From contig CACYHX010000017.1 of the NCBI GenBank assembly GCA_902774365.1, positions 27,548 through 91,547 of the forward strand: a stretch of 64,000 nucleotides of DNA, given 5' to 3'. Shown piece by piece: positions 42,029 to 51,358 of this stretch (its first letter is position 1; the number at the start of each line of letters is the position of its first letter). The stretch is from an uncultured Bacteroidia bacterium (GTDB lineage: Bacteria > Bacteroidota > Bacteroidia > Bacteroidales > F082). The notes below the pieces were generated by a model. The model did not search any database, was not told the origin of the DNA, and worked only from the letters and a program-made list of their open reading frames with translations. The position numbers were made by a program, and so were the translations under genes.

Positions 42029-43861
42029 ATGAAACTGAACAGGATACTAATAGGATGGTTTGTTTTGTTGGCCTTGGCCTCATGCCATGACCCTGTAGAG
42101 ACGCGGCGCGCCACGTCTCTACAACCCGAGGTATCGCCCGAATTGTTGTATATCGACAGCCTAATGTGGTATCATCCAGACAGTGCCTTGATGCACCTGA
42201 TTTATTATTTCAAACCCGATAGCGCGACCATCACCCTCTCCACAAGAACGGAATGCAACCAACGATATGCGCACTTGCTGCTGTCGGAATTGCTGTTTAA
42301 AAATGGTTATCCACAAACCAACCGAGAAAATCTGTTGTGGTCAGTGGATTATTTTGATTCGTCAACAATGGTGAAAATGCACGGGACGGACATACGCGGT
42401 GTGTCCCTACAGACCGAATCGGATTATAGGAACGCATCAAATGCGTCCGCCCAAAACATGTCTCCAAATAATGTATTTTTGTCCGCCCGCGCCCATTATA
42501 TGAATGGCGTTGGCTATCAGGAACACGACAGCATCATCGAGGCCTACAACGAATACATCCGCGCCTTGGAAATCATGGAAACGCATTTCCCAATTGTAGA
42601 GACGTTGCGCGCAACGTCTCAAAACACGACATCAAAAAAGACGTTGCACGCAACGTCTCTACACATCATACCCCACCTTCCCCGTTTCATGATGCTGATC
42701 CATTGCCGTCTCGGCGGCCTGTTTTCCGACCAATTCATGCAGGAACCCGCTATCTATTGCTTCAAAAAGGCACTCGCTTTCAACAGATTGGAACCCATTT
42801 TTCCTGACGATTACTCCAATTCATTATATTTCATAGGGCTTCAATACGATAAACTACAGCAGTGGGACAGTGCACAGTATTATTATGATGAAGCCCTGCG
42901 ACTACTGCCCGACACAAGCGACTGGCTTTTCAAGGTCTTGATATCAAGTAAGGCCAATCTCAACTATGTTTCAAGCGAGGAGGTTGAACCCGCCGTGAGC
43001 GACTTGAAACGCATTGCTGCGCAAACCGATTCCTGCGATAAACCTAGGTGTTTCTTTCTCATCGGACAGATTTATTATGATGCAAATCAATATGATTCGG
43101 CTCTGGTGTATCTAGTCCCAACCTTTGAACAAAGCAAAGGCGTTGCAACCAAAACCCTAACAGCCAAATTCTTGCATGACATATACCAAAATCGAGGCGA
43201 CACGCTGAAGGCGGTGCAATACGCGGTCTATCACGCGGAAAACACAGAACAGGAAAGGGTTATGATGGCGCGAGTTTCATACCTCAACGATTTGTTCCAG
43301 AACCATTTGCAGAAAGAGCAAGAAACCTATTTACTCCGTCAACGTCAAAATAACATCAAAAAGTTGCTTATTATAGCGCTACCTTTGGCCGCAATTTTGG
43401 TGGCCTTTGTGGCCATCATAATACGGCGCAGAAGCAAAAAACGCTTGGCGATACAAGAAGCCGAAAAGCAACGACAATTGAGTGAATTCCATCAAAAGCA
43501 CGATGCTGTGGAACGTGAGCTGCAATCGAAGATAGCGCAGTCCGCAGCGCATACGCGGGAAGTGCTGCAACAGCGCGCCATGACGATTTACCAATCGGGC
43601 AGCGAGAACCGATTGAAACAGATTTTGGCGGAATTTGAGGCCGTCTATCCAAAAGCCTTGTCGGAATTGGCCGTCGCGCATCCCGAGTTGAGCAAAACGG
43701 AGCGCCACATCGCCGTGCTCAATTTCCTCCGTTTCCGCTCGAAGGAAGAGGCCGAACTGATGGGCTTCACCGAATACACAGCCCTGAAATACCGCTCCAA
43801 CCTGAAAAAAAAGGCTGGTTCTGACCCGATTTCAACCTTGTTTGAGGCTGGAAAAATCTGA
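42029..43861 (+). CDS. TPR lipoprotein regulator with TM helix, coiled coil and LuxR-like HTH
   Basis: About 610 residues. Lipobox LALASC (Cys about 19), helical TPR repeats (about 150-420), a transmembrane helix (LLIIALPLAAILVAFVAIII, about 450-470) followed by RRRSKK, a glutamine/glutamate-rich coiled coil, and a C-terminal helix-turn-helix region (HPELSKTERHIAVLNFLRF, then TALKYRSNLKKK) resembling the LuxR-type domain of Bacteroidota TPR regulators. It may sense an envelope signal and control adjacent genes. The N-terminal 210 residues are peppered with short palindromic repeats translated in frame (VETRRATSLQ at 23-32, VETLRATSQ at about 190, KTLHATSLH, plus two related ones). Confidence 0.8.
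   Translation: MKLNRILIGWFVLLALASCHDPVETRRATSLQPEVSPELLYIDSLMWYHPDSALMHLIYYFKPDSATITLSTRTECNQRYAHLLLSELLFKNGYPQTNRENLLWSVDYFDSSTMVKMHGTDIRGVSLQTESDYRNASNASAQNMSPNNVFLSARAHYMNGVGYQEHDSIIEAYNEYIRALEIMETHFPIVETLRATSQNTTSKKTLHATSLHIIPHLPRFMMLIHCRLGGLFSDQFMQEPAIYCFKKALAFNRLEPIFPDDYSNSLYFIGLQYDKLQQWDSAQYYYDEALRLLPDTSDWLFKVLISSKANLNYVSSEEVEPAVSDLKRIAAQTDSCDKPRCFFLIGQIYYDANQYDSALVYLVPTFEQSKGVATKTLTAKFLHDIYQNRGDTLKAVQYAVYHAENTEQERVMMARVSYLNDLFQNHLQKEQETYLLRQRQNNIKKLLIIALPLAAILVAFVAIIIRRRSKKRLAIQEAEKQRQLSEFHQKHDAVERELQSKIAQSAAHTREVLQQRAMTIYQSGSENRLKQILAEFEAVYPKALSELAVAHPELSKTERHIAVLNFLRFRSKEEAELMGFTEYTALKYRSNLKKKAGSDPISTLFEAGKI
42094..42123. repeat. 30-bp palindrome in the TPR gene (family A copy 1)
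   Basis: TGTAGAGACG-cggcgcgcca-CGTCTCTACA. It is exactly 30 bp, perfectly inverted at the ends, and encodes VETRRATSLQ (with edge bases). 28 of 30 bases match copy 2 in malQ (49489-49518). Confidence 0.9.
42384..42448. repeat. Two further imperfect palindromes in the TPR gene
   Basis: GGGACGGACATACGCGGTGT plus GTCCC (42384-42408, ending in the shared GTCCCTACAG) and GGAACGCATCAAATGCGTCC (42429-42448). Both are inverted about their centres and translated; the first encodes RGVSLQ, matching the RATSLQ end of family A. Confidence 0.6.
42595..42663. repeat. Paired family A palindromes in the TPR gene
   Basis: TGTAGAGACGTTGCGCGCAA-CGTCTC (42595-42620) and GACGTTGCACGCAACGTCTC-TACA (42640-42663) sit 19 bp apart. 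Each is missing the outer end that the other keeps. Both are read in the same frame (VETLRATSQ, KTLHATSLH). Confidence 0.85.
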
Positions 43862-43955
43862 ATAGATTTTTTATTAAACACCTGATAGCCAACATTATCG
43901 TATTAAAAAATCTGAATTAGGCATTGAAATTTGGGTATTTGATGGTTTTTGACTA

Positions 43956-43963
43956 TAATTTTG
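43956..43963 (+). promoter_or_regulatory. -7 box for the CarboxypepD/propeller gene 1
   Basis: TAATTTTG with a TTTG 22 nt upstream (43930-43933); ATG follows at 43987. Confidence 0.55.
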
Positions 43964-43986
43964 CAAAAACATCAAACCATAGCACC

Positions 43987-45243
43987 ATGAAAATGAATAA
44001 CGCCTTTACCTTGTTTGCGTTCCTACTGTTGGCAGCCAACATTTACGCCCAAGAACGCCAAATCATCCAAGGCTGCTGCAAAGACGAAAACGACAAAGCC
44101 ATCGAGAACGTGAGCGTGTATGTGCACGACTCGCTGCTTGTTTCCATTACCGACGCCCAAGGTCGCTTCACGTATGGACACGCCAAAGAAGGTGAGAAAC
44201 TCCGCTTTGCCCACATGGTTTTCGAGCAGGCTTACTATACCATCAAAGAAAAAGACATCAACGGCAAGAACCTGACGGTCAAGATGAGAACGAAGAGCCA
44301 TGAATTGCTGGAGGTACAAGTGACCGCTCATGCGCCCCACATCGCTTACGACAACCCCGTGATGACCGTCATCGACTACACCCTCCGCGACGACGGCATC
44401 TATCTGATTGCCTATCGCCGCCGATACTCCACCTTGCTCCATCTCTCTTTTGACATGGACACGCTCCACGAGATGAAAATATCCTCGCGCTACAAGTACA
44501 TCACCAAGGACGCTTTCGGCGACATCTACGCCATCAACGACTACCAAGCCAGCCTGGTTGGCTTCATGGAATTGGAAAACGAGAAGAAACTACTGATGAA
44601 CTTCTACCACTCCATGTCGCGGAAAGAATTTTACGACAAGTTCGCAGCCATTGTGGCTGCCAGCGACAGCGTTTTCGTCACCGGACAACGCCATTTTTTC
44701 AACACAGGATTGGGCTATTACCGATACCATTATGGCCGTGACGAAGAGCCGAAACTGCTCCATTACATCGAGGACGACGAAGCTGCCGGTAGCATCCGGT
44801 GGCACAACGGCCATTACGAAGTCCAACCCGAATTCATCGAGCCGGTTTATGCCCCTATTTATGCCATCGACAACAAGTTCTACATCTTTGCCTACATCGA
44901 CAACGAAACGGTTGTCTTCGATGCGGCAGGCAATGAGTTGGAGCGTCATCCCCTCACCTTCCACGAATACCGAAATTGGAACGGGAAGATGGAACCCGAC
45001 CGCCGCTGGAAGCGGAAAATGCTGGTGGATGCAGCACGGAAAGAGTTCTACACTTTTTTCGTCACCGACGGCGTTTATACTCTGAAGCGCATCGACCTGG
45101 AAACCGGAACGGCCACCTCCGTCATGGACCTCAGCGGCTATCCCTTCGCTGAAAACATGAGGATCCACGATGGGACGCTGTATTTCCTTTATCCCACGGG
45201 GTTCAACCACCGGAAGGCATTGTATCGAGTGAGGATAGAATAA
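43987..45243 (+). CDS. Secreted CarboxypepD-regulatory-like plus beta-propeller protein (first)
   Basis: About 418 residues. Signal peptide (1-20), an N-terminal CarboxypepD_reg-like domain (about 22-110: IIQGCCKDENDKAIENVSVY, ITDAQGRFTYG), then a beta-rich region with repeated bladed segments that fits the '6-bladed propeller' proteins of Bacteroidota, ending in ALYRVRIE. The protein at 47864-49327 has the same two-domain layout and ends GVISRVRIE. Function unknown; the neighbourhood suggests it works with the EreA/ChaN-like proteins. Confidence 0.75.
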   Translation: MKMNNAFTLFAFLLLAANIYAQERQIIQGCCKDENDKAIENVSVYVHDSLLVSITDAQGRFTYGHAKEGEKLRFAHMVFEQAYYTIKEKDINGKNLTVKMRTKSHELLEVQVTAHAPHIAYDNPVMTVIDYTLRDDGIYLIAYRRRYSTLLHLSFDMDTLHEMKISSRYKYITKDAFGDIYAINDYQASLVGFMELENEKKLLMNFYHSMSRKEFYDKFAAIVAASDSVFVTGQRHFFNTGLGYYRYHYGRDEEPKLLHYIEDDEAAGSIRWHNGHYEVQPEFIEPVYAPIYAIDNKFYIFAYIDNETVVFDAAGNELERHPLTFHEYRNWNGKMEPDRRWKRKMLVDAARKEFYTFFVTDGVYTLKRIDLETGTATSVMDLSGYPFAENMRIHDGTLYFLYPTGFNHRKALYRVRIE

Positions 45244-45316
45244 AGCAATTTTTGGAATGATTTTTGCAGTATTTAAACCATATTGTACCCAGTTCAATCC
45301 TTAAAAATCACGTTCC

Positions 45317-46543
45317 ATGAAAAAGATTTACATTCTATTGCTTTTGTCAGCATTAACTTTTCAAAGCGCCGTGGCGCAAAACGAACAGCCCAATCCTTAC
45401 CAAGTGGCTAAAGAAGATGGCTACGGCTATCGCTCGCTCATCAAACTGCTCGATATGGACAGCACCTTTATCGGCTCGAAGTTTGAACATTCCTATCACG
45501 ACCTGTTAGCCATCTTGTGTTCCCGCGTCGGGCGATACAAGGAGGCAAGGCGCGAAGCCGAGGCTTGTGGGACACAATTCCTCGACAATATGAGATTCAA
45601 GAATAGTTATAAGGATGTGAAAGCCATCCCCTTGTCGGAAATAATGGACAGCATCATCGCGAACAACCGCGTCATTATGATGAACGAGAGGCACTTCAAC
45701 CCACATAGTAGGGCTTTCGTTATCAGTTGGTTAGAGAAATGCTATGAAAACGGATATCGTTATCTCGCCGCCGAGACCCTGTTTGCAAAGGATTCCTTGC
45801 TCAACGAGAGGCGCTCGGTGCTGTTGAGCGAAACAGGGTTCTACAGCGACGAGCCTGTCTATGGCGATATGCTCAGGACCGCGCTCAATTTGGGCTATAC
45901 ACTCGTGCCTTACGAAGGCGACGGCTTCGGCGTTGATCGTGAGGTGAACGAAGCCAAAAACCTTGTCGAAAGAATCATCAGCCAAGACCCTGAAGCAAAA
46001 TTCCTGCTTTTAGGCGGCTTCGGGCATATCGCCGACCGCAACGGATGGTACACGATGGGCAGATATTTCAAGGAACAATCCGGCATCGACCCGTTCACGA
46101 TGGATTGCACATTCTTCGACGACCCATACGGCGAAACCGATTCCTTGCAAACCGTTTATTACGACTTGATTGATGCGATGCCCAACCGCGAGCCTATCCT
46201 TCTTTATGACACGGTGAAGCATATCTTCCCTTGCAATTCGGGTATGGATGCCACCTGCTGTCTACCCCGCACACGCTTCATCGAAGACAACATCCCCGAC
46301 TGGAAACTCTACAACGGCAAGGTGCTTTACACTATCGACCGCCGTTTTATCAAAAAGAACGGATTCCCCGAGGGTTGCGTGAGCGCGTTCCTGAAATCGG
46401 AAGGCGAGCAATGCGTCCCCATCGACCAGTATATGTACGGTAAGGACGAGAAGGAATTCATGTTAGCGCTTTACAAGGGCGAGTATCTGTTGCGGTTTGA
46501 CGACGGGAAGGAGTATAAATATGCTACAATCTATGTGAAATAA
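45317..46543 (+). CDS. Secreted EreA/ChaN-like protein
   Basis: 408 residues with a signal peptide (1-20). The core resembles the TraB/ChaN/erythromycin-esterase superfamily: RVIMMNERHFNPHSRAFVIS (equivalent to the GExH motif), YRYLAAETLF, and FLLLGGFGHIADRNG further on. In family members such Glu and His residues line a hydrolytic or metal/heme site. The GE of the first motif reads NE here. The preceding gene is a propeller protein and the next is a second EreA-like lipoprotein. Confidence 0.65.
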   Translation: MKKIYILLLLSALTFQSAVAQNEQPNPYQVAKEDGYGYRSLIKLLDMDSTFIGSKFEHSYHDLLAILCSRVGRYKEARREAEACGTQFLDNMRFKNSYKDVKAIPLSEIMDSIIANNRVIMMNERHFNPHSRAFVISWLEKCYENGYRYLAAETLFAKDSLLNERRSVLLSETGFYSDEPVYGDMLRTALNLGYTLVPYEGDGFGVDREVNEAKNLVERIISQDPEAKFLLLGGFGHIADRNGWYTMGRYFKEQSGIDPFTMDCTFFDDPYGETDSLQTVYYDLIDAMPNREPILLYDTVKHIFPCNSGMDATCCLPRTRFIEDNIPDWKLYNGKVLYTIDRRFIKKNGFPEGCVSAFLKSEGEQCVPIDQYMYGKDEKEFMLALYKGEYLLRFDDGKEYKYATIYVK

Positions 46544-46563
46544 GGAAAATACTGCGTTTTTTG

Positions 46564-46571
46564 TAGTTTTG
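46564..46571 (+). promoter_or_regulatory. -7 box for the EreA-like lipoprotein gene
   Basis: TAGTTTTG, 27 nt before ATG 46599. Each gene of the 42-49 kb cluster except the last has a similar TTTTGCA-type sequence upstream. Confidence 0.45.
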
Positions 46572-46598
46572 CAGAATAGTATTCAAAACCATAACGCC

Positions 46599-47852
46599 AT
46601 GAAAAACATTCGATTTTACACCCTGCTTGTGCTCCTGCTGATGGTGGGAGGTATTTTTGTTTCGTGTGGCACAGAGCCAGCCGAAAAACAAATTGCCGAC
46701 CAATTCACGGATTTTTCAGACGAATCCACCAGCTTTGAACAAATCAAAAACGCCGTCAAGGGCAAGCGCATCGTCATTTTAGGCGAGGCCGGACATGCCG
46801 ACGGAAGAACTTTCGAAATCAAGTCGGAACTGATCGAATATCTCAACGCAGACAAAGAATATGATGTCGTTTTGGAAGGCATGGGGTTCCTTGATGGCGC
46901 TGTTTTGCAAGGCATTTTGCCATCGTTGTGCATCGACAGCAACTATCTTGATGTGGCTAATGCATGGAATCCATTGTGGAGCCAGACAAAAGAAGCATCC
47001 TCTTTGGTGAAAGCCATGCGCAGCGGCAAGGTGAGGTATTGGGGCATGGACTGCCAACCATCCTTAAGCGACTATTTCCTTATTCCTTATTTGTTGGCTT
47101 CTTCACCAAGCGTTTCAAGCGTGTTAGGAGGAAGTGCTTTTGACTCCCTGATGCCCATTCACGACCGTATGATGAGCATGGATACCACTTTGACACATAA
47201 CGAATTGGATTACTTTGATTCGAAGATGAGCCAAGCCCAAAAAGCCTTGGAAGAGGAAACCGATTTGGAAAAGAAGGCCATCCTTGATATGACCATTGAC
47301 AACGCCTTGGCGTTTTCGGGACAGGTGAGATTGGGATTCACTGAGTGGGATGCACAAAACGAAGGCATCAACATCCGCGACCGACAAATGGCCGAGAATG
47401 TGACATGGTACCTGAACCATTTTCCAGAAAGAAAAATCATCATTTGGACCGCCAACTTTCACGGAGCCAAGCAAATCAACCAAATCAATTACGGCAAAGA
47501 GCCTGACCCGGATTTGTACAACAAGTATGTGCTTTGTGGTGAGCATCTTGAAAAGGCATTCCCTGGGCAGTTGTATTCCCTGGCTTTCACTTCGGGTGGT
47601 GGTAGCGAGGGCTATTTCTATGCGAACGACAGCACCGCGATTGTGCCTGATTCAACATCGGTGGAGTTTCAATTGGGACAGCGTGGAATGGAATATGGCT
47701 TTTGCGATTTGAGCCAAAGGAAAGATTGGGCTGACATGGTTTTCAATAGCACCATATTGGGCTATGACTGCAAGCCAGGTAAATGGGCACGGGCTTTCGA
47801 TGGCATCTTTTATATGAAAGAGAATCATAAAGCGCATTTTGTTCAAGATTAA
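46599..47852 (+). CDS. Erythromycin-esterase-like lipoprotein
   Basis: About 417 residues from ATG 46599 (an ATG 30 nt upstream lies in the leader). Lipobox GGIFVSC. GKRIVILGEAGHADGRTFEI is the EreA motif with catalytic Glu and His, followed by YDVVLEGMGF, MRSGKVRYWGMDCQPS and KIIIWTANFHGAKQIN (second His). Erythromycin esterases hydrolyse macrolactones, but most family members in Bacteroidota have no known substrate. It pairs with the divergent relative just upstream. Confidence 0.8.
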   Translation: MKNIRFYTLLVLLLMVGGIFVSCGTEPAEKQIADQFTDFSDESTSFEQIKNAVKGKRIVILGEAGHADGRTFEIKSELIEYLNADKEYDVVLEGMGFLDGAVLQGILPSLCIDSNYLDVANAWNPLWSQTKEASSLVKAMRSGKVRYWGMDCQPSLSDYFLIPYLLASSPSVSSVLGGSAFDSLMPIHDRMMSMDTTLTHNELDYFDSKMSQAQKALEEETDLEKKAILDMTIDNALAFSGQVRLGFTEWDAQNEGINIRDRQMAENVTWYLNHFPERKIIIWTANFHGAKQINQINYGKEPDPDLYNKYVLCGEHLEKAFPGQLYSLAFTSGGGSEGYFYANDSTAIVPDSTSVEFQLGQRGMEYGFCDLSQRKDWADMVFNSTILGYDCKPGKWARAFDGIFYMKENHKAHFVQD

Positions 47853-47863
47853 AACATAATCCT

Positions 47864-49327
47864 ATGGAACACAGAAAAGCTTTCTTGACATTATTGATGG
47901 TTTGCCTTGGCTTTACACTTTTCGCCCAAACCAAAACCATCGTTCACGGCAACCTCGGCGTGGAGAACGTGAACATCAGCATCGTGAACACGCCTTACGG
48001 CACCAGCACCGATGCCAAAGGGCATTACGATCTGCCGCTTTTCGACCGCTCGGAGACCGTCAACCTGTATTATTCCTGCATCGGCTATCAGGATACGGTA
48101 GTGAACCTCACGCCACGACAGTTGCAGCGCGATTCCATCAATGTCAGTTTCCGAATGCGCAAGATGAGATACGACCTTCAGGAAGTTGGCGTTTCGGCAA
48201 GCAAAGACTTTTACCGCTCTGGTTCCAACCGCAACATCGCCGACATCGCGTTTTTGAATGGGAAAATCTACCTTTTGGAGAACAAGCCCAAGACTTCCTC
48301 GATGGTCGTCTTAGACACCGATGGCGTGGAACAAGCCCGCAAGGACTTCGACCAACTCTTTGAAAAGCTTCACATTGACGCTTTCGACGACCTTATTCTT
48401 GTCGGGCAAGACAGTTGCTTGCAGGTATATCTTGATGAAAAACAGGGCATTTTGCCCGTTTCCACCTTCTCGCGCGATGATTACCGCAACAAACTGCTCA
48501 AAATCGTTTGCGAGTACAACGGGGCTTACATCGTTAGGACCATCGTTCACGACCGAGGACTTTACTGGCTCAAATTCAACCACGGCAAAAGCCAAGACTT
48601 CTTGTATGTGAAGAAAGACGGTTCGATGGAAAAACCGCAGTACTTGTGCAGTTTCATTGACACCCTCGGCTATCGTGCATGCCAGTCGCAATGGATGAAG
48701 ATACAAAACGAATACCATCAGGCGATGGCGGAAAACTTCTCCCTCGAGTCCATCTACGATGAGAACGGGGACGGGCATTCGATGCGCGAAGGAGAAAGCA
48801 TAACTTCCATTCGCATCAAAAAAGCGGAACGAGGAAGCCCGGGCATCGACCTCATCAACGAGGGGATATGGGACGGAAACCTGGTTCGTCTGGCAGAAAC
48901 CCCAACCTTGCTTGGAATGATACAATGGTATTGCTCCATCATGGCCAAAAAGGAACTCCAGATTGTCCCCTTGAAAGTCAATGGTTTGCTTCAATTCGTT
49001 GGTCTTGACAACCGCGAAATCGTGGAAATCGGCCCCGACTTCAAAGTGGCAAAGAGGCAGCCTCTGAAAATCACTTCGGGAGAGAAGTTTTTCAAGAACG
49101 AGTTCCTCACCGACAAAGCCACAGGCAAAACCTATGGTCTCTTCGTGGAGAACGGAATGAACCACATCGGTCTCTACGACCCCGAAGCGGGCACAGTCGG
49201 CATGGGACAAAAAGCCAGCAAGAAGATTTATCCAAGGGTATTCAAGGTGCATGGCGGCTATGCGTATAGTGTGTTTTACGATTCGGGGAGCAATCGCGGG
49301 GTGATTAGTCGGGTGAGGATTGAATAA
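47864..49327 (+). CDS. Secreted CarboxypepD-regulatory-like plus beta-propeller protein (second)
   Basis: 487 residues: signal peptide (1-22, ending LFAQ), CarboxypepD_reg-like domain (about 25-110: VHGNLGVENVNISIVNTPYG, STDAKGHYDLPL, LYYSCIGYQDTVVNL), then propeller-like repeats and the terminal SRVRIE. It is a paralogue of the protein at 43987-45243 and follows the EreA-like lipoprotein by 11 bp, indicating a shared transcript. Role unknown. Confidence 0.75.
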   Translation: MEHRKAFLTLLMVCLGFTLFAQTKTIVHGNLGVENVNISIVNTPYGTSTDAKGHYDLPLFDRSETVNLYYSCIGYQDTVVNLTPRQLQRDSINVSFRMRKMRYDLQEVGVSASKDFYRSGSNRNIADIAFLNGKIYLLENKPKTSSMVVLDTDGVEQARKDFDQLFEKLHIDAFDDLILVGQDSCLQVYLDEKQGILPVSTFSRDDYRNKLLKIVCEYNGAYIVRTIVHDRGLYWLKFNHGKSQDFLYVKKDGSMEKPQYLCSFIDTLGYRACQSQWMKIQNEYHQAMAENFSLESIYDENGDGHSMREGESITSIRIKKAERGSPGIDLINEGIWDGNLVRLAETPTLLGMIQWYCSIMAKKELQIVPLKVNGLLQFVGLDNREIVEIGPDFKVAKRQPLKITSGEKFFKNEFLTDKATGKTYGLFVENGMNHIGLYDPEAGTVGMGQKASKKIYPRVFKVHGGYAYSVFYDSGSNRGVISRVRIE

Positions 49328-49345
49328 AATCCTTACCTTTGCTGC

Positions 49346-51358
49346 ATGAAAACCTTATTCAGATTACGATACAACAGCCGCTGGGGCGAGGAATTGTTCC
49401 TCACGGGAAACAGCGATGAATTAGGCAATTGGAATCCAAACAAGGCCGTTCCGATGGATTATGTGGGGCCTGGAATTTGGTCGGTTTCCGTAGAGACGCG
49501 GCGCGCCACATCTCTACAGACCACGGAATACAAATATTTCATCCGCGAAAACGACCAAATCCGTTGGGAGGATGGCCCCAACCGCATCCTGCCCGATGGC
49601 AAAGACCGCGTTTGGGATTGGTTCGGCCTCACCGAAAGGCAAACGATGAAAGGTGTGGCCGTGCCGTTGTTCAGCTTGCGCACGGAAAACGATTTTGGCA
49701 TCGGCGAATATGCCGACCTGCCGAGATTGGGCGACTGGTGCGTGGCCAACGGACTGAAAATCATCCAAATCCTGCCCATCAACGACACGACGGCACATTA
49801 TGATTGGCATGACTCTTATCCTTATAATGCCATCTCGGCTTTTGCGCTGAACCCGATTTATTTGAATGTTGAACAATTGTGGGCTTTCCCACCTATAGAT
49901 TCGCTTCGGATTTTGAAGGCATGTCATACCGAGCCATCAGGCGAAGCGTATCTATGCCTTCAAAATCCTCGGAATGACATAGGTGGAAAAGCTACATCTT
50001 TCAAACGGATGCGGACGATGCTCAACAAGGAGGAATCCGTCAATTACCCCAAAGTGCTGAAAGCCAAATGGAAATATTTCCAAACCGCCTTCGAGCAGCA
50101 ATGGGAATCTTTGAAAAAAACCACTGAATTCCAGCAATTTGTCAAAGAAAACGAAGACTGGCTCAAAGACTATGCCCAATACTGCGCCGAACGCGACGGC
50201 AACGGCACGGAGATCCATCTCTTCCTGCAATACCACTGCGACAAACAGCTGCGCGAGGCAGTCAAAGCCTTACATGACAAGGGATTGCTGCTGAAGGGCG
50301 ACATCCCCATCGGCGTGAATCCCATAGGCGTGGACGTGAAATCTCATCCCGATTTGTTCAACCTCGACGTGCAAGTAGGTGCCCCGCCCGATGACTTTGC
50401 CGCCAAAGGACAAAATTGGGGTTTCCCGTCATACAACTGGGAGGCGATGTCGAAGGACGGCTACGCCTGGTGGCAACGCCGCCTGCAAGTGATGGCGCGT
50501 TATTTCGATGCCTACCGCATCGACCATATCTTGGGCTTCTTCCGCATCTGGGAGATTCCCAAGACGGCCAAATCAGGGCTACTGGGGCACTTCTCTCCCG
50601 CCCTGCCCCTGAGCGAGGAAGAAATTGAAGGCTTCGGTTTCCATTTCATCAAAAGCAAACACTTGAAGAAAGGCCTCGACACCCTCTTCATCCCTGCACC
50701 GAACGAGAAAGACAAGTACATTCCTCGCATCGAACTGCATAAAACCAAAGCCTACCAAACCCTCAGCGTTGACCAAAAACAAGCCATCGATGGCATTTAC
50801 GAGGACTTCTATTTCCACCGTCACAACGACTTCTGGAAGCAGAAAGCCTTGGAGAAACTACCCGCTCTCATCAACGCAACGAAGATGATTGCCTGCGGCG
50901 AAGACCTCGGCATGATTCCCGCCTGCGTGCCCGAAGTGATGCAACGGTTGGGCATCATGAGCCTTGAGGTGCAACGTATGCCTAAAATATTTGGCCATCA
51001 GTTTGTGCAGACTGAAGACCTGCCCGAGAACTGCGTCTACACCACGGGCACCCACGACATGCCTACCTTGCGCGGCTGGTTGGCCGAAGACCGCGTCCGC
51101 ACCCGTCAGTTCCTCGATAGCCTCGACCTCGACGACCGCAAAGTCACCGCCAAGACCCTGAAAAAAATCATGGAAAAGCACCAGGATAGCCCCTCGAAGT
51201 GGAACATCTACCCGCTGCAAGACCTCTTGGACTTGGACGAAAAGAATTGGTCGCCCAACCCTGCCGACGACCAAATCAACGTCCCGGCCAACGCCAAGAA
51301 TCAATGGAAATGGCGGATGAAGACGAATTTGGAGACTTTATTGCAGCCAATCCAATAA
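49346..51358 (+). CDS. malQ: 4-alpha-glucanotransferase with N-terminal starch-binding (CBM20) domain
   Basis: 670 residues. N-terminal CBM20 (about 1-105: FRLRYNSRWGEELFLTGNSD, LGNWNP, EYKYFIREND), then GH77: PLFSLRTENDFGIGEYADL, LPINDTT, the nucleophile Asp in YRIDHILGFFRIWEIP, the acid/base Glu in CGEDLGMIP and the third Asp in TGTHDMPTLRGW. It transfers maltooligosaccharide units. Two repeats are translated in frame: VETRRATSLQ (residues 49-58) inside the CBM20 and a hairpin insert (about residues 181-215) at a loop of GH77. Sequence around both is otherwise conserved. Confidence 0.93.
   Translation: MKTLFRLRYNSRWGEELFLTGNSDELGNWNPNKAVPMDYVGPGIWSVSVETRRATSLQTTEYKYFIRENDQIRWEDGPNRILPDGKDRVWDWFGLTERQTMKGVAVPLFSLRTENDFGIGEYADLPRLGDWCVANGLKIIQILPINDTTAHYDWHDSYPYNAISAFALNPIYLNVEQLWAFPPIDSLRILKACHTEPSGEAYLCLQNPRNDIGGKATSFKRMRTMLNKEESVNYPKVLKAKWKYFQTAFEQQWESLKKTTEFQQFVKENEDWLKDYAQYCAERDGNGTEIHLFLQYHCDKQLREAVKALHDKGLLLKGDIPIGVNPIGVDVKSHPDLFNLDVQVGAPPDDFAAKGQNWGFPSYNWEAMSKDGYAWWQRRLQVMARYFDAYRIDHILGFFRIWEIPKTAKSGLLGHFSPALPLSEEEIEGFGFHFIKSKHLKKGLDTLFIPAPNEKDKYIPRIELHKTKAYQTLSVDQKQAIDGIYEDFYFHRHNDFWKQKALEKLPALINATKMIACGEDLGMIPACVPEVMQRLGIMSLEVQRMPKIFGHQFVQTEDLPENCVYTTGTHDMPTLRGWLAEDRVRTRQFLDSLDLDDRKVTAKTLKKIMEKHQDSPSKWNIYPLQDLLDLDEKNWSPNPADDQINVPANAKNQWKWRMKTNLETLLQPIQ
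49489..49518. repeat. 30-bp palindrome in malQ (family A copy 2)
   Basis: CGTAGAGACG-cggcgcgcca-CATCTCTACA; 28 of 30 positions match the copy at 42094-42123. It is read in the same frame as that copy and encodes the same ten residues, VETRRATSLQ, within the CBM20 domain. Confidence 0.9.
49887..49990. repeat. Long imperfect hairpin insert in malQ
   Basis: The left arm (49887-49923, CCCACCTAT...GGATTTTGAAGGCAT) pairs with the right arm (49953-49990, ATGCCTTCAAAATCC...ATAGGTGG). The centre carries TGTCATACCGAG...GTATCTATG, shared with the waaA repeat. The frame is kept, encoding RILKACHTEPSGEAYLCLQN and flanks. Confidence 0.75.

Follow-up and report, generated by a model that had tools for sequence, protein, structure and literature searches.

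The window analyzed here, a stretch of 64,000 nucleotides from an uncultured Bacteroidia bacterium, contains a TPR lipoprotein or regulator gene and, further along the same strand, malQ; both genes carry palindromic repeats that are read in frame (Table 1).

Table 1. Genes and repeat elements of the window discussed in the text (positions are those of the whole stretch; assignment to REP elements is putative).
Feature	Positions	Strand
TPR lipoprotein/regulator gene, three palindromes inside	42029..43861	+
Putative double-foot REP, core CGGCGCGCCA, frame 0 (VETRRATSLQ), in the TPR protein	42094..42123	+
Putative doublet of REP palindromes, both cores of TTGC type and both outer arms intact, reads VETLRATSQNTTSKKTLHATSL in frame 0	42595..42662	+
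malQ, 4-alpha-glucanotransferase (CBM20 + GH77)	49346..51358	+
Putative double-foot REP, core CGGCGCGCCA, frame 0, loop preceding the EYKYF strand of the MalQ CBM20	49489..49518	+
Second, unrelated in-frame hairpin repeat in malQ, ~107 nt (CACCTATAG...ATAGGTG)	49884..49990	+

An earlier sequence-only reading had described a 30-bp palindrome shared by the TPR gene and the CBM20 part of malQ, identical at 28 of 30 bases and encoding VETRRATSLQ in both, and this was confirmed. The first copy in the TPR gene had the arms TGTAGAGACG-N10-CGTCTCTACA and one mismatched pair in the core, and the copy lies just after what is presumably the lipobox-like Cys. The two shortened copies that had been reported in the same frame of the TPR gene were also present; these partial copies (42595–42624 and approximately 42635–42662) jointly form one 68-bp double hairpin, and doublets built in the same manner were found in malQ of four relatives (L078, L097, L099 and L100). 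The MalQ protein matched PF00686 at residues 3–82, with the palindrome starting at residue 49 (Pfam), and alignment to solved CBM20 structures placed the copy in the turn before the EYKY strand. The window contained three matches to the palindrome (no more than three mismatches), as against a mean of 0.01 in shuffled sequence.

It should be noted that other hairpins occur in the same two genes. The second malQ hairpin was absent or shorter or different at that site in most of the orthologues read (different or shorter versions in L077, L079, L085, L087 and L099; L078 resembles the window), and stretches related to it were dispersed in genomes G000, G003, G019 and G024, often in stop-containing frames. 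In the TPR gene, two more in-frame hairpin-like stretches, RGTDIRGVSLQ and RNASNASAQN, were recognized by eye at 42389–42470, and the loop after the lipobox in TPR relatives of the genus contained other repeat-like peptides (PLSEGEG).

The repeats belong to a family with constant 9-bp arms, GTAGAGACG and CGTCTCTAC, around an exchangeable palindromic core (GTAGAGACG-N10-CGTCTCTAC). Its members are 28–30 bp long with GTAG at both ends, and have neither a CGTC terminus nor the length of RPE-1. The ten central bases form varied palindromes or near-palindromes recurring across species, including CGATTAATCG, GTGTGCACAC, CGCCATGGCA, CAAAATTTTG, CACGGCCGTG, CGGCGCGCCA and TTGCGCGCAA. A genome-wide search, which had been proposed by the sequence-only reading, identified a dispersed repeat: the 2.8-Mb genome containing the window (hereafter, own genome) had 87 places matching the pattern, versus one for the reversed pattern (no more than three mismatches, core left open), and CGATTAATCG was the commonest core in the exact list. 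With one mismatch allowed, the family was detected in 44 of 60 genomes, namely, the own genome, all 35 sampled genomes of the genus (2 to 75 copies each) and eight of 24 genomes from other families of the order. Named genomes, when scanned, yielded at least 115 stretches with the palindrome. Among the matches listed were Bacteroidales, many of them assemblies from rumen or abomasum, and numerous filamentous Cyanobacteria (Scytonema, Calothrix, Nostoc, Iningainema), along with a small number of records from Chloroflexi, Acidobacteria, Spirochaetia, Brocadiaceae and other groups. No constant target duplication was apparent by eye in the flanks of the copies, and no transposase was recognized by eye among the genes between neighboring copies at L004, L023 and L060. 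The palindrome was also present in 109 stretches of viral contigs (L311–L419; 145 exact copies), where the commonest cores were CAAAATCTTG (25), CAAAATATTG (20) and CGATTAATCG (16), and in these stretches no HUH-motif frame of at least 60 aa was found.

The reading frame of the copies was assessed in 55 distinct copies read out of the 87 places in the own genome, with a stop-to-stop frame of at least 200 aa as a proxy for a gene. Such frames contained 29 of the 55 copies (24 in frame 0, five in frame 2 and none in frame 1), and 26 copies lay outside any 200-aa frame, whereas 81% of random positions in the same loci fell inside frames of this size; thus, the copies are depleted from genes, yet far from absent. 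Since stop-to-stop frames may be spurious, Pfam matches were used as anchors. The scan covered 49 proteins, that is, two RAYTs and 47 of 62 listed host-gene frames, the latter being long frames picked by hand, of which the other 15 were left out. In 17 of the 47 host genes the copy lay within a Pfam match. Frame 0 was used in 12 of these, namely, the MalQ CBM20, T9SS tails (L063, L066, L219, L226 and L243), AlkZ-like L065, HATPase L232, SIR2 L238, EPSP synthase L302, kinase L292 and trypsin-like L279, and frame 2 in five, namely, AcrB-type L037, T9SS tail L039, HsdR L220 and ChlH of two cyanobacteria (L294 and L297); the matches of L039 and L238 were below the Pfam cut-off, the site is the same in L294 and L297, and L063 is a paralogue of L066. 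In seven more hosts the copy lay between two Pfam matches (frame 0 in L045, L025, L222, L303, L197 and L262, frame 2 in Mfd, L257), with one flanking match below the cut-off in each of L025 and L197. The remaining 23 scanned host genes had no anchored frame. The anchored ratio of frames 0, 2 and 1 was consequently 18:6:0, and the excess of frame 0 corresponded to a two-sided binomial value of about 0.02 (hand arithmetic), so frame 0 is a preference in host genes, not a rule.

The expectation that the unit enters genes without a frameshift and is then read in frame was borne out by these host-gene tallies, and in-frame insertion was seen in unrelated genes. The statement that a single frame is used was true of all four copies of the window and is valid there only, because both stop-free frames are used elsewhere (frames 0, 2 and 1 at 24:5:0 in the own genome, 18:6:0 in Pfam-anchored genes and 27:28:0 in RAYT genes). 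Even use of all three frames, stops included, which had been named as counter-evidence, did not occur: frame 1, in which the TAG of GTAG is a stop, was empty in every tally. Relatives of the TPR gene contained decayed copies in which full palindromy was lost and the frame was still open, and these are read as old copies. REP elements are mostly treated as intergenic, and the present family is one whose copies are read within well-known genes (MalQ, T9SS tails, ChlH, Mfd, AcrB type and EPSP synthase). At least five T9SS-tailed genes of the own genome, including L063, L066, L069 and L070, carried CGATTAATCG copies at one and the same position in their C-terminal sorting domains, which is probably due to gene duplication.

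The palindrome was also found inside RAYT genes. All six frames of at least 100 aa with the HUH motif MPNHIH in the at least 115 named stretches contained the palindrome in frame, although its presence had been the criterion for retrieving these stretches. Further copies with the same core were found inside or flanking five of these frames. The right subclass was reached solely through a protein query from such a palindrome-holding RAYT (L300), which matched in 135 of 295 genomes of the order and gave five matches at four places in the own genome. Fold modeling of L300 (five sequences, mean pLDDT 70.6) gave a structure whose best match was the REP-bound TnpAREP 4er8 (E = 6.6 × 10−7, TM = 0.49/0.55), and the embedded residues 101–110 (hand count) lay in a low-confidence linker (residues 99–117, pLDDT < 50). 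L300 scored below the Pfam cut-off, and L441 had no Pfam match. Of 67 RAYT frames, most of them obtained with L300 and L441 as protein queries, 44 contained a copy located after the HUH motif and before WQ/Y (no more than four mismatches of 18 in the arms) and 23 did not; the 55 embedded copies were in frame 0 (27) or frame 2 (28) and never in frame 1. The NHxH and WQ motifs were observed, as was YIxNN, with either P or, in many of the Bacteroidales rows, V in the next position. Embedded copies were present in two RAYTs of the own genome, L441 (CGATTCATCG type) and L470 (GTGCRYGCAC type), and copies of this kind were absent from L471 and L472. None of these four RAYTs, in an assembly 82.6% complete, had the window core CGGCGCGCCA; of the RAYTs read, the nearest to that core was L450 of another family (CGGCGCGCCG).

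Genes detected with the Pfam model Y1_Tnp (PF01797) were considered as candidate mobilizers and rejected, as this model finds other RAYTs in the genus and none of the 32 loci (L016, L017 and L166–L195) was flanked by the palindrome. This includes L016 and L017, the first genes detected with the model; the locus L194 had one copy approximately 1.2 kb away. Among 20 further matches (L420–L439), there was one copy with one mismatch, about 420 bp from the match (L430), and the copies with four mismatches at L429, L431 and L432 were taken as chance.

The segment between the embedded copy and WQ varied with the core (Table 2). The correspondence had exceptions, FGPQSKNL being paired also with CAATGCATTG (L463) and CCATGCATGG (L231), so the core does not fit one segment strictly.

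Table 2. RAYT segments and the cores of the copies embedded beside them.
Segment after the embedded copy	Core
(K)FGPQSKNLASIIRGFK	CAAAATTTTG
GGITGxxNPML	CGATTAATCG
MQxIANxQGxLS	CGCCATGGCA
RFQNQGKN	AGGCATGCCT
RWKxxxVDxxMQxIS	GTGCATGCAC/GTGTGCACAC
SPKxGSL	TTGC/TAGC types

In 36 of the 44 embedded-copy RAYTs retained after dereplication, core distance was correlated with the distance of the post-copy segment (Mantel r = 0.60, p = 0.0001; 0.585 when controlled for the N-terminal part). The correlation with the N-terminal part was 0.15 (p = 0.002) and fell to −0.03 (p = 0.67) when the segment was controlled for, and that with the part from WQ on was 0.09 (p = 0.03). Thus, the N-terminal part adds nothing to core prediction once the segment is controlled for. 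Part of the correlation may reflect linkage, because core and segment sit in one gene; the flanking copies and the genome-wide counts agree with it. Flanking copies, mostly situated outside the gene, were present at 28 of the 44 RAYT loci and absent from 16; of 52 such copies, 47 had the same core as the embedded one (shuffle mean 9, maximum 25), and most RAYTs with surrounding copies showed a single core. In a hold-out set, comprising the 12 of 30 additional RAYTs that had copies nearby, the nearest segment predicted the best nearby core to a mean of 2.6 differences in ten, versus 6.1 at random (p = 0.0002); predictions were far off for two of the 12 (L305 and L458) and middling for L455 and L476, and three (L491, L494 and L512) were easy cases close to the training set. 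Five genomes of the genus with a close (77–100% identical) CGATTAATCG-type RAYT contained 26, 10, 16, 22 and 4 CGATTAATCG copies, while the other 55 genomes contained 0 to 10, with 31 zeros (p = 6.6 × 10−5). This correspondence between a hairpin core and a segment of 20–30 residues makes RAYT specificity directly testable.

The same site was found to be occupied by different cores. The CBM20 loop was read in MalQ orthologues of the genus, for which 60 genomes were searched and 46 gave a match. The MalQ tree comprised 22 sequences, 14 with the palindrome (L089 counted as a decayed copy) and eight without it (WSVETDVTPMAEYKYF and similar); L094 (cut off), L097 and L100 (doublets) and L101 (no copy) were outside the tree. 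The 14 palindrome-bearing sequences had six core types, counting the doublet as one, all in frame 0, and the core residues at this single site were RRAT, VCTP, HGRA or QNFA. Strong support was obtained for four of 19 inner branches, and the cores did not cluster on the tree beyond shuffles (8 changes versus a shuffle mean of 8.6); therefore, only sister pairs serve as evidence. Three well-supported pairs differed, namely, L081 (GTGTGCACAC) from L082 (CACGGCCGTG), L096 (CAAGATTTTG) from L099 (doublet) and L085 (filled) from L093 (empty). L076 and L079 had different cores with one difference in the 14 nearest flanking bases. The empty forms of malQ were only 12–18 bp shorter than the single-copy forms, and a few bases beside the copy varied as well, which contradicts the claim that the unit adds exactly ten codons; an empty site differing by exactly 28–30 bp was not found among the malQ orthologues and the compared flanks.

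For the flank comparison, 87 copies not selected for that purpose were used. In a leader between two genes of G000, G021 and G020 (L060, L038 and L032, respectively), three genomes had three cores, with the 5′ flank matching up to the arm in all three; L060 and L038 were 89% identical over 528 bp through the masked copy, and in L032 the 3′ flank differed for about 20 bp beside the copy. Two cores were also found at L040 and L043, where, apart from the bases adjoining the arms, both flanks diverged within about 20 bp of the copy, and at two sites between tandem lipoprotein-like paralogues (L004 and L023), for which orthology is less sure. One core was kept at the shared site of L026 and L055 and at that of L007 and L044, and L034 and L051 had the 3′ flank alone in common. 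It appears that the sites often persist while the cores turn over, and, because flanks are largely kept around differing cores, these alignments suggest exchange of the core in place. Assembly error as the source of the core changes was judged unlikely by reasoning only, the 9-bp arms being shorter than assembly words.

Taken together, the palindrome is very probably a non-autonomous double-foot REP of TnpAREP subclass 2.4 (RAYT group 4) mobilized in trans by a Y1 HUH transposase; the embedded, flanking and genome-wide copies point to a cognate RAYT as the agent of spread. The transposase would recognize the folded single strand and, by analogy with published enzymes of other groups, would cut at the GTAG feet and insert copies; cleavage of a folded single strand at the foot has been shown for other RAYTs (PMC8266576). 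Copies in genes would be translated as VETxxxxSLQ or CRDxxxxVST and would persist solely in one of the two frames free of stops and, where this is visible, in loops or linkers such as the MalQ CBM20 loop, the site after the lipobox and the RAYT linker. Their tolerance may thus be explained by small size, two open frames and loop sites. The core goes with the RAYT lineage, and after insertion the arms would generally persist, with the core changing from one species to another.

The opposite assumption, that both protein stretches go back to inheritance or convergence of a functional VETxxxxSLQ peptide and that palindromy of the DNA is incidental, appears very improbable. The prevalence of frame 0 over frame 2 in host genes (18:6) and the open frames of decayed copies in TPR relatives are in its favor, but the core residues at one site are unrelated, which was the reason for rejecting it; moreover, some orthologues have no copy, frame 2 yields another peptide, nearly half of the own-genome copies (26 of 55) lie in no 200-aa frame, some copies of the family are in leaders, and noncoding copies keeping the palindrome were seen. 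An element similar to RPE, having no dedicated transposase and multiplying through slippage in replication or the action of some unrelated enzyme, would agree with the known CGTC REPs, including RPE-4/6, for which no transposase is known according to the available part of the source (PMC3733652), and with the copy-bearing genomes of the genus in which the RAYT query had no match, e.g., G032 with 24 copies. Nevertheless, it is improbable, given that copies with matching cores flank and sit inside RAYT genes and that CGATTAATCG counts track the RAYT of that type.

How cores come to differ at one site within a putatively RAYT-mobilized family is less certain. Exchange could proceed through RAYT action at the shared feet or through a template switch at the 9-bp arms, although repeated insertion at a strict target could mimic it. 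Independent insertion into a preferred target, with no exchange within a resident copy, is quite possible, though not favored: bases beside the malQ copy vary too (6 bp 5′ of it and 5–11 bp 3′ of it), the core is unclustered on the malQ tree, and the 3′ flank of L032 and the partly shared flanks of L034/L051 fit as well. It is opposed by the leader of L060, L038 and L032, where the 5′ flank matches to the arm across three cores, and by L076/L079 of malQ, with one of 14 nearest bases changed and yet different cores. In-place exchange can be extended, tentatively and with slightly less than even confidence, to a scheme in which the arms serve as a docking frame while the core is an identity tag that can be swapped: resident cores would be exchanged, in coding and noncoding copies alike, by RAYTs or through a template switch within the arms, and each RAYT would hold its own tag in frame beside its reader segment, so that tag and reader could move between RAYTs as one module. 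Sites fixed in place with a changing core provide a natural record of REP movement, which is still poorly understood.

The sequence-only reading had compared the element with Rickettsia palindromic elements and knew of no description of this sequence in Bacteroidales. The first comparison stood as regards a dispersed mobile palindrome that enters unrelated genes in frame and is translated; it failed as regards the type of element, a GTAG double-foot REP with RAYTs of its own, whereas RPEs have a terminal CGTC (RPE-4/6, PMC3733652) or are longer (RPE-1) and occur in another host group. As to the second, a 2018 paper (PMC6006769) already describes the class in Bacteroidetes and Cyanobacteria, and the family is not peculiar to Bacteroidales. 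According to the accessible text of Quentin et al. (2018; PMC6006769), subclass 2.4 comprises double-foot REPs with GT[AG]G...C[TC]AC ends of a long stem in Bacteroidetes, Cyanobacteria and scattered phyla; copies flank the RAYT gene and are inserted in frame inside it, between HuH and Y, the proteins have NH[IFV]H, WQ and YIxNNP motifs (here P or V) and the HUH fold, and REPs in unrelated genes are noted. All of this resembles the present family; the host-gene copies of this particular family, the core–segment correspondence and the turnover of cores at one site go beyond the portion of that account available. Di Nocera et al. (2013; PMC3733652) reported REPs of the GTAG and CGTC types within genes, with RPE-4/6 among the CGTC ones, and the GTAG families are similar in their GTAG terminus, short stem and dispersed copies, some in frame inside ORFs, but differ in having the tag at one end, with no Bacteroidetes named for them in the available part of the article. 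The very small mobile SDR repeats of cyanobacterial Nostoc (Elhai et al., 2008, via PMC4390886) are similar in their small size, their mobility and their occurrence in cyanobacteria (SDR5 compared by description only). Corneloup et al. (2021; PMC8266576) tested the specificity of three RAYT/REP pairs, and the accessible text of that work does not use the terms “double foot” and “subclass 2.4”. In the open-licence literature, no account was found of core exchange at fixed sites or of segment–core correspondence for this group, and the matches listed in a literature search with the string GTAGAGACG were all unrelated by title; prediction of the core by the RAYT segment after the embedded copy and the same site with differing cores were likewise not found in print there.

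Other palindromes were observed near related enzymes. The Y1 transposases L169, L174 and L176 of the genus had nearby palindromes of their own (GGATG or CATCC type), unrelated to the family described here. RAYTs of the same subclass with other repeat-like peptides in that linker were also found, namely, GLSYHGSR (L472 of the own genome, L488 and L517), VETPYYDVST (L444, L455, L476 and L508) and DARGASLQ (L454, L507, L509 and L515), and these peptides perhaps represent other REP families.
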